Below, in pieces: positions 33,803 to 43,123 of a DNA stretch of 43,170 nt; positions within the stretch are counted from its first letter, which is position 1; every line of letters begins with the position of its first letter. Source of the DNA: a bacterium (GTDB taxonomy: Bacteria > Planctomycetota > UBA11346); the NCBI GenBank assembly GCA_020049615.1, contig JAIFKN010000175.1, forward strand, positions 1 through 43,170, given 5' to 3'. The notes beneath the pieces were generated by a model. The model had not been told where the DNA came from. It saw only the letters and a program-made list of their open reading frames with translations, and did not search any database. Position numbers and translations under genes: made by a program.

Positions 33803-34939
33803 ATGACCGACCGCGCCGCCCGACTCGTCTTCGCCGATGGCACCATCTTCCGCGGGCGCTCCGTCGGCGCGATCGGCACGACCACCGGCGAGGCGGTGTT
33901 CAACACCGGCATGACCGGGTACCAGGAGGTCCTCAGCGATCCCAGCTACCGTGGCCAGATCGTCACCATGACCTACCCGGAGATCGGCAACTACGGCATC
34001 ACGCCGCTGGACATGGAAAGCGACCGCGCCCAGGTCAGCGGCTTCGTCATGCGCGATTGCTGCGAGGTGCCGTCGAACTTCCGCTCGGTCGAGAGCCTGC
34101 CCGACTTCCTCAAGCGTTCCGGCATCGTCGCCATCGACGGCGTCGACACCCGCGCCATCACCCGCCGCCTGCGCGTATCCGGCGTGGTCAACGCCGTGAT
34201 CAGCAGCGAGGACGCCAGCGACGCCGAGCTGATCGCGCGGGTCAAGCAGGCCCCGTCGATGAACGGCCTCGACCTGGCGACCGTGGTCTCCTGCAAGACC
34301 GCCTACGACTGGGACGAACCCAGCGACCGTGCGAAATTCGGCACCCCGGTCGAGTGGCCGGCGCTGAGCGGCAAGCCGCTGGTCGTGGCGATCGACTGCG
34401 GGGTCAAGCGCAACATCCTGCGCCTGCTGGTGTCGTGCGGCTTCCGCGTCCGCGTGGTGCCGAGCACGACCAGCGCCGCCGAGATCCTGGCGCTCCAGCC
34501 GCGCGGCATCTTCCTCTCCAACGGTCCCGGCGATCCGGCCGCCGTCACCAGCGTCATCGCCAGCGTGAAGGAGCTGCTCACGACCGACGTGCCGGTGTTC
34601 GGCATCTGCCTCGGCCACCAGATCCTCGGCCTCGCCTACGGCGCCACGACCTACAAGCTGAAGTTCGGTCACCGCGGATCCAACCACCCGATCAAGCGCC
34701 TCGCCGACGGCAAGGTCGAGATCGCCAGCCACAACCACGGCTTCGCCGTCGACCCGAAGTCGCTGCCGGCCGGCGTGCGCATGAGCCACGTCAACCTCAA
34801 CGACATGACCTGCGCCGGCATCGAGCACGAGCAGAAGGCGCAGTTCTCGGTGCAGTACCATCCCGAGGCCGCCCCCGGCCCGGCCGATCCGTTGTACCTA
34901 TTCCGCCGTTTTTCTGAGGCGGTGGCTGGAAAGGCTTGA
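33803..34939 (+). CDS. carA: Carbamoyl-phosphate synthase small (glutaminase) chain
   Basis: A 378-residue subunit that hydrolyses glutamine and passes ammonia to CarB for arginine and pyrimidine synthesis. GEAVFNTGMTGYQEVLSDPS and PEIGNYGI are the N-terminal CPSase blocks. The class I glutaminase domain has LSNGPGDPAAV, the catalytic Cys in FGICLGHQILGLAYG, GSNHPIK, and the catalytic HPE in QYHPEAAPG. ATG 33803 has GGAG 6 bases upstream. carB is not downstream; the gene is followed by an inverted copy of its own 3' end and then mtnA. Confidence 0.96.
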   Translation: MTDRAARLVFADGTIFRGRSVGAIGTTTGEAVFNTGMTGYQEVLSDPSYRGQIVTMTYPEIGNYGITPLDMESDRAQVSGFVMRDCCEVPSNFRSVESLPDFLKRSGIVAIDGVDTRAITRRLRVSGVVNAVISSEDASDAELIARVKQAPSMNGLDLATVVSCKTAYDWDEPSDRAKFGTPVEWPALSGKPLVVAIDCGVKRNILRLLVSCGFRVRVVPSTTSAAEILALQPRGIFLSNGPGDPAAVTSVIASVKELLTTDVPVFGICLGHQILGLAYGATTYKLKFGHRGSNHPIKRLADGKVEIASHNHGFAVDPKSLPAGVRMSHVNLNDMTCAGIEHEQKAQFSVQYHPEAAPGPADPLYLFRRFSEAVAGKA

Positions 34940-35094
34940 GGCTTGAGGCTCATTGCCTCCAAACCTCGCAGCACAGGGCTGCAGTTGCCATCACGCGCCT
35001 GTGAGTGGCAATGGACCTCAAGCCTCAGGCCTCAAGCCTTTCCAGCCACCGCCTCGGAAAAACGGCGGAACAGGTACAGCGGATCGGCCGGGCC
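34877..35094. repeat. Inverted repeat of the carA 3' end
   Basis: The left arm is 34877-34940, the last 20 sense codons and stop of carA plus a base beyond; the right arm is 35031-35094 in reverse orientation. Of 64 aligned bases 61 match. The three differences (TTG/CTG, CTA/CTG, TCT/TCC in the carA frame) are all synonymous, so the right arm encodes exactly the same C-terminal peptide. Similarity continues past the stop into a GGCTTGA heptamer array, with two copies on the left and three on the right, and then CATTGCC (34951-34957 and the reverse complement of 35004-35010). The unpaired centre is about 34958-35003 and contains a smaller hairpin (TTGCCA at 34985-34990 and TGGCAA at 35006-35011). 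Confidence 0.9.
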
Positions 35095-35114
35095 CCGCCG
35101 ATACCGTCAAGCCG

Positions 35115-36167
<1,053 letters not shown>

Positions 36168-42812: not shown

Positions 42813-42902
42813 GGAGAGGTGGCAGAGTGGTCGAATGCGCCGGTTTCGAAAACCGGTTTACCAGAAATGGTAACGGGGGTTCGAATCCCTCCCTCTCCGC
42901 CA
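42813..42902 (+). tRNA. tRNA-Ser (anticodon CGA)
   Basis: A 90-base type II tRNA with encoded CCA. Acceptor stem GGAGAGG pairs with CCTCTCC, discriminator G, then CCA. The anticodon stem CCGGT/ACCGG encloses TTCGAAA, so the anticodon is CGA (reads UCG). The long variable arm (ACCAGAAATGGT) and the T arm (GGGGGTTCGAATCCCTC) are intact. Confidence 0.97.
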
Positions 42903-42903
42903 T

Positions 42904-42930
42904 CAAACGCTTGGTTTTTCCAAGTGTTTG
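42904..42930 (+). terminator. Hairpin terminator after tRNA-Ser
   Basis: CAAACGCTTGG at 42904-42914 pairs with CCAAGTGTTTG at 42920-42930 (11 bp with one G-U pair), loop TTTTT. It begins one base after the CCA end. The poly-T lies in the loop and only TTG follows the stem, so termination strength is uncertain. Confidence 0.65.
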
Positions 42931-42937
42931 TTGCTAG

Positions 42938-42977
42938 CCCGGTTCCGGCGCCGACCTCGGTCGGCGCCGGAATCGGG
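42938..42977. repeat. Strong GC palindrome downstream of tRNA-Ser
   Basis: TTCCGGCGCCGAC at 42943-42955 is the exact reverse complement of GTCGGCGCCGGAA at 42960-42972, loop CTCG; CCCG/CGGG extends it outward with one G-T pair. It follows the terminator hairpin by 7 bases. Function is not evident; another terminator or a REP-type element is possible. Confidence 0.6.
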
Positions 42978-43028
42978 CGGGATCCTGCGGGCATCTGCAA
43001 GTCCCTGCTGTTGCCCGCAGGATCCCGC
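42977..43028. repeat. Perfect 17-bp inverted repeat adjoining the first palindrome
   Basis: GCGGGATCCTGCGGGCA at 42977-42993 and its exact reverse complement at 43012-43028 flank an 18-base centre that can form an inner GCA/TGC pair. A partial third copy (GGGTCCCGCAG) follows at about 43031-43041. Such arrays are seen in REP/BIME elements; nothing here shows a mobile gene. Confidence 0.6.
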
Positions 43029-43123
43029 TGGGGTCCCGCAGCATTCACGCACCCGCGTGACCGCCTGCCGCCCTGGCCTTCCCTGGGATACGCGCGCCAG
43101 AGATCCTCGCCCCCGAGGGTTCC

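Follow-up and report, generated by a model that had tools for sequence, protein, structure and literature searches.

An inverted copy of the carA 3' end in place of the native mtnA start in a Planctomycetota contig

In the quasi-palindrome mutagenesis of E. coli, fold-back copying takes place at an imperfect inverted repeat and usually corrects a few bases. The fold-back mechanism is also in print for other genomes (PMC8794818, PMC6649704), and template switching is a published route to long perfect stems, the cases presented being human microRNA loci and rRNA genes, including bacterial rRNA (Monttinen and Loytynoja 2022, PMC8794818). Heptamer repeats such as TAACTGA are described from intergenic regions of Beggiatoaceae (PMC4679880), and the one paper found that links heptamers with Planctomycetes and inverted repeats reports the heptamers in Thiomargarita.

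The window (the whole stretch of DNA analysed, 43,170 nucleotides) carries carA, encoding the small subunit of carbamoyl-phosphate synthase (378 aa; 33803..34939, + strand; TIGR01368, 476.8 bits with a cut-off of 307.35), and on the same strand the conserved and intact body of mtnA, encoding S-methyl-5-thioribose-1-phosphate isomerase (35097..36167; PRK05720, 373.8 bits with a cut-off of 271), both genes being identified by NCBIfam. An inverted repeat with two arms of 74 nt (34877-34950 and 35021-35094), complementary at 95% and separated by 70 nt, joins the two genes, and it is the longest and best inverted pair among those listed in a scan of the whole window. With one gap of 7 nt the alignment extends to 34877-34957 and 35007-35094 around a loop of 49 nt (34958..35006), with four substitutions in total, one extra heptamer on the right arm and both arms reaching CATTGCC (34957 and 35007). 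The left arm (34877..34957, + strand) is made up of the carA 3' end, the last 20 codons and the stop being its coding part, of a heptamer array with GGCTTGA twice and GGC (34933..34949, + strand), the first unit of which holds the carA stop TGA (34937-34939), and of CATTGCC. The right arm (35007..35094, - strand) consists of inverted CATTGCC, a heptamer array (35015..35038, - strand) with one unit more than the left one, and the inverted carA 3' end. The outline given in the original prediction was borne out here: the copied coding part is 63 nt long and lies within the two 74-nt arms, its three differences (TTG/CTG, CTA/CTG and TCT/TCC in the carA frame) all leave the protein unchanged, and the similarity continues past the stop into the heptamers, the right array being the longer.

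Among 392 genomes drawn from Planctomycetota the closest carA products are found in G285 (96% aa identity), G122 (92%) and G277 (91%), and 23 genomes of the family of G285 contain none that is closer. The named sources of close carA proteins (P0006, P0012) are Planctomycetes or Planctomycetota among the matches listed, which were the best 120 in each protein search out of 8000 and 7998 best candidates scored. At the nucleotide level carA and mtnA are 94.1% and 94.5% identical to those of G285, respectively. The order carA then mtnA is seen in eight of 18 loci examined (L081, L082, L083, L085, L086, L088, L090 and L098), most of the 18 reaching just about 1.5 kb past carA. The three closest genomes (L081–L083) have spacers of 77, 63 and 70 nt respectively, in which GGAG is followed by an mtnA start reading ATG-CCC-CGY-ACC/ACG, and none of the three has a comparable inverted repeat between the genes. 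In the window mtnA is present from codon 5 on, with GGAG and ATG-CCC-CGY missing, and the mtnA homology begins again only at the end of the right arm. The BLAST match to the G285 contig ends at 34934 and restarts at 35093, with 94–95% identity on either side, and at the junction between the inverted carA end and mtnA (35093..35096; junction sequence GGATCGGCCGGGCCCCGCCGATACC) the two nucleotides CC (35093-35094) fit both sides. The copy had been said to replace the expected start region of mtnA, and so it does. A relative with a normal mtnA start and no right arm had been put forward as the mark of an assembly artefact; this arrangement is present in all of L081–L083, and we read it as the ancestral state. 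Outside carA-mtnA the matches between the window and the G285 contig are blocks out of collinear order, so that the correct order is backed by the gene pair only.

An ungapped inverted-repeat scan with spacers of up to 200 gave a score of 62 in the window versus 37 for the best pair in 120 blocks of G285, G277, G122 and G183 (2,087,047 bases), and pieces of the repeat found in 23 relatives were short, the best being 35 nt over the right heptamers. When the 250 nt downstream of each CDS were searched for exact inverted matches, 14 nt or longer, to its last 63 nt, carA (24 nt) was the one positive among the 28 CDS ends of the window, and in the blocks of the relatives covered by this search one of 1075 was positive (14 nt). 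The RNA of 34870-35130 is predicted to fold with -187.8 kcal/mol (z -19.1), a stability reached by none of 200 shuffled sequences.

The reading frame of mtnA has survived the loss of its start: a four-way alignment shows 17 synonymous and four nonsynonymous changes unique to the window, and no stop inside the frame. The eight closest mtnA proteins among the matches listed (P0121-P0128) are 361–362 aa long and begin with MPR or MSR. In frame with mtnA there is a stop at 34944, followed by TTG 34953, GTG 35001 and, past the arm, TTG 35115, and the frame is open through the loop and the right arm into mtnA (34953..36167, + strand). TTG 34953 is preceded by GAGG at a distance of 4 nt, and TTG 35115 is the first ATG, GTG or TTG in frame past the right arm, 20 nt on, the same distance as counted in the original prediction. 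The first residue of the frame (404 aa) matched by PRK05720 is residue 54; with a start at TTG 35115 (residue 55), nearly the whole conserved part would therefore be retained. Since the body is intact, translation of mtnA probably begins at another start, the candidates read from the sequence being TTG 34953, GTG 35001 and TTG 35115. This translation might be coupled to that of carA or of a short leader frame; a possible leader of 35 codons starts at ATG 35011 (35011..35118, + strand), and its stop TGA overlaps the candidate start TTG 35115.

A single template-switch mutation of the fold-back type, at a heptamer hairpin downstream of carA, probably formed the locus, the new strand rejoining its template inside mtnA. 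The ancestor would have had such a hairpin directly 3' of the carA stop, of a class that recurs in the relatives. We infer that it happened during rightward synthesis of the coding-sense strand: the growing 3' end, then in the heptamers on the right, would have folded back onto those on the left with a shift of one unit and gone on to copy about 63 nt of the carA 3' end. The return to the template would have been at codons 4–5 of mtnA, bypassing the native spacer, Shine-Dalgarno sequence and start, and the live carA end would have gained its synonymous changes afterwards. The out-of-register pairing would explain the extra heptamer as well as the abrupt onset of near-perfect copying, and the return inside mtnA would explain the lost start. 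Heptamers at the switch point suit template switching; the microhomology at the return is 2 nt only. Inverted duplication followed by drift, one of three options offered originally, is in this form the best supported, and recombination with a sister strain or a join between two strains less so.

The hairpin that should have preceded the copy has to be assumed, as none is seen behind carA in the three closest genomes. It is nevertheless a likely starting point, since hairpins of 7-bp units recur in the relatives and, by eye, heptamer-like inverted arrays lie between the two genes in L088 and L090. At one threshold 7-bp-periodic inverted repeats were found at two loci in 786 kb of G285, two in 240 kb of G277, 11 in 267 kb of G122 and seven in 394 kb of G183, and of nine inverted repeats in another 400 kb of G285 three had the 7-bp periodicity. 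Their sparseness in G285, the closest genome, is evidence against the fold-back reading. The pair of 26 nt at 34932-34957 and 35007-35032 (88%) has the layout of the hairpins of the clade, in which two 7-bp arrays in inverted orientation flank a short spacer between genes. The repeated word often differs from locus to locus, and L134 is a full hairpin of the GGCTTGAGGCTTGAGGC word family; with one mismatch allowed GGCTTGAGGCTTGAGGC gave eight hits in four of the 23 family genomes and its backward control four hits in three, so that the heptamer word alone is not specific. Hairpins of 7-bp, and also of 8- and 9-bp, units occur at many loci (blocks L148-L247 and L276-L295) and are densest in G122. 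CATTGCC or GATTGCC adjoins heptamer arrays at L147, L133 and L190:16578-16757, as it does at the loop edges in the window. G183 also has a recurrent hairpin family, GCTCCC(T/C)GGGAGCGCCGGCTTC(C/T)AGCCGGC, REP-like by look (L206:9690-9813, L207:2596-2737 and L192:4510-4622).

The differences between the arms are the main loose end, and the fold-back reading does not fully explain them. At 34892 and 34898 the relatives have CTC (L081), CTG (L082) and CTG (L083) at both positions and the right arm has CTG, while the TTG and CTA of the left arm occur at these positions in none of L081–L083. The right arm therefore looks older, the live carA end having changed. Position 34913 is ambiguous, because the relatives encode Ala (GCC, GCT and GCC) and both arms of the window Ser. 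Of the allele with CTG, CTG and TCC proposed for comparison, L082 and L083 have CTG and CTG, with Ala at the third codon. The view that the right arm is the end of another functional carA allele is not needed when its CTG codons look like the older state, and the kept coding sense, taken as a sign of a working allele, would be seen in any recent copy of coding DNA. Between the arms dS is 0.21 (3 of 16.3 sites, with a wide error) and dN 0 (43.7 nonsynonymous sites), compared with a dS to G285 of 0.19 for carA and 0.148 for mtnA. A freely drifting right arm of equal age would by proportion have about 11 changes, and none must be placed on its carA part, so that either the live end changed fast, or different alleles are involved, or mixed strains were assembled.

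The last possibility, that the arm, or only its differences, come from merged reads of related strains in a metagenome, is on the whole unlikely. The window may be part of a metagenome record, long hairpins are difficult to assemble, and the arm difference of about 5% resembles that between separate strains or species. Against this, and as the best argument for a real structure, mtnA follows the arm directly, in the same order and orientation as in the relatives; a join to a strain in the opposite orientation should re-enter carA, and two exact false joins within about 200 nt would be required, which makes a simple two-strain join unlikely. One chimeric molecule, for its part, would give identical arms. 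The codons TTG 34892, CTA 34898 and TCT 34913 each occur once in carA, in the left arm, none of them being used in the remaining 358 codons; the ordinary carA of another strain would therefore not by itself account for the left arm. A strain mosaic could still be the source of the arm differences.

The relatives contain a second kind of structure in which the end of a gene recurs in inverted orientation. Behind genes for tRNA-Ser, -Gln, -Thr and -Leu an element is present at 12 loci, six in G285, three in G277 and three in G122 (L248, which equals L150:18960-19250, L249, L255, L259, L262, L279:6040-6320, L295:1978-2200, L298, L311, L318, L319 and L320); these loci were chosen for a motif or repeat and are thus not a random sample. 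The element combines a hairpin, in which the tRNA tail recurs inverted, with a CCACGCARGTGG-type stem and, after it, a direct copy of the T-arm or of the whole tail, and is sometimes found in tandem. The hairpin begins in the tRNA tail and has arms of 22–38 nt that are 83–100% paired, 6–20 nt of them being tRNA; the CCAYGCARRTGG-type stem follows the tRNA at 103–111 nt. Beyond it 11–25 nt of the tail recur exactly in direct orientation, at 133–156 nt in 11 of the loci; in L320, with its two stems, the distance is 318 nt. Neither the stem nor such a hairpin occurs at seven other tRNA-Ser genes (L250-L253, L256, L257 and the one in the window). The CCACGCARGTGG pattern gave 39 hits in six genomes versus 27 for a backward control, most of the control hits being in G183 and G196. 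Among 30 CCACGCARGTGG loci, some of which cover one and the same unit, none of the six in G183 and G196 is near a tRNA, while 12 of the 24 in G285, G277 and G122 are within 600 nt of one, in three others the stem is extended by 5 bp or more at the start of a contig, and the remaining nine have neither feature. Five tRNA-tail loci matched no Rfam family except tRNA at the gathering score, and the literature matches listed contained nothing that fits the elements, though this does not establish that they are undescribed. Repeats of 178 bp (rtT) lie behind E. coli tyrT, and we take the tRNA-tail elements to resemble these. The tRNA-Ser(CGA) of the window has an ordinary hairpin behind it (42813-42940), and by eye its gene sequence is the same as that of L259 in G285; as L259 carries the element, the window represents an empty site. 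An imperfect inverted repeat of 34 nt (79%, 6-nt spacer) lies behind this tRNA gene at 42966-43039.

A common denominator would be a process of this clade that repeatedly copies gene 3' ends backwards over terminator-like hairpins, at the four kinds of tRNA gene as well as at carA, with the mtnA start displaced by the copy, and mtnA now starting in antisense-carA DNA and depending on a hairpin that ribosomes completing carA would melt; we consider this broad proposal improbable. General inverted copying at CDS ends in the relatives was rejected, as only the one end among 1075 reached 14 nt.

Recombination between strains, in which a sister lineage with a different synonymous allele would have supplied either the live carA end or the right arm, is a little harder to believe. 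That three of three arm differences are synonymous, with none on 43.7 nonsynonymous sites, suits two working alleles. Also in favour is the carA tail, with five unique changes in the last 21 codons versus 14 in the remaining gene, and with A or T at the end of 8 of its last 20 codons versus 16 of 358 elsewhere in carA. An inversion would still be required, however, the right arm has the state of the relatives at two of the three sites, and the same last bin is raised in L081 (four unique changes) and L083 (five), not in L082 (none), indicating that the carA tail evolves fast in general. A conversion tract over the tail, where the last 63 nt differ from G285 at 18 sites compared with 1–5 in the other full bins, was toned down for the same reason. 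Of the unique changes in the carA of the window, C>T makes up four of five within the final 21 codons and four of 14 outside, which weakly suggests a mutational bias.

An integrated element, or a site-specific or retro-type process shared with the tRNA-tail elements, is highly improbable: the succession of tail, hairpin and inverted tail is indeed that of the 12 tRNA loci, yet the CCAYGCARRTGG stem is absent at the carA copy, with no hit of it or of the CCACGCARGTGG-type motif in the window, no direct copy of the carA tail is among the repeats listed in 34500-35600, and only one of 1075 CDS ends in the relatives has an inverted copy reaching 14 nt. We give equally little credit to the idea that the structure is, whatever its origin, a selected regulatory hairpin coupling mtnA expression to translation of the last carA codons. 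The stem is very stable, its left arm would be melted by ribosomes finishing carA, and GAGG stands ahead of the in-frame TTG 34953, but the hairpin is missing from the three closest genomes, nothing in 34700-35300 reaches an Rfam gathering score (four sub-threshold microRNA matches are what a long hairpin is expected to give), and the right arm is directly followed by CCGCCGATACCGTC with no run of T, so that the structure is not an intrinsic terminator. An origin from a phage or plasmid was rejected, since no phage or plasmid match for the repeat was found and the exact pattern of the right-arm tail does not occur in viral contigs.

If the fold-back template switch is real, the locus is a polarised bacterial case in which a single event gave rise to a stem longer than 70 bp, recast the carA-mtnA spacer and took away the start of the second gene, yet left that gene intact. 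Hairpins and possible translational coupling could then arise in one step, and the locus would be a test case for the divergence of long inverted-repeat arms of which one is coding. The kind of mutation is already known; here it would be unusually long, and it would have removed the start of a gene. Compared with the quasi-palindrome mutagenesis of E. coli, the event at carA would have lengthened the arms by 63 nt. As in the coding palindromes described from Nematomorpha mitochondria, a long inverted repeat lies within protein-coding sequence, but both arms encode conserved protein in the palindromes presented there and the left arm alone is known to code at carA (PMC6649704). Units of 7 nt are repeated intergenically as with TAACTGA in the Beggiatoaceae, while the words in the window differ from those given there, are laid out as an inverted hairpin, and include the carA stop inside the array (PMC4679880). 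Closest are the template switches described by Monttinen and Loytynoja (PMC8794818), which share with this locus a one-step reverse-complement copy beside its source, a near-perfect stem and outgroups without it; unlike the cases presented there, the copied stretch here is 63 nt from the 3' end of a bacterial protein gene and takes the place of the start of the following gene.
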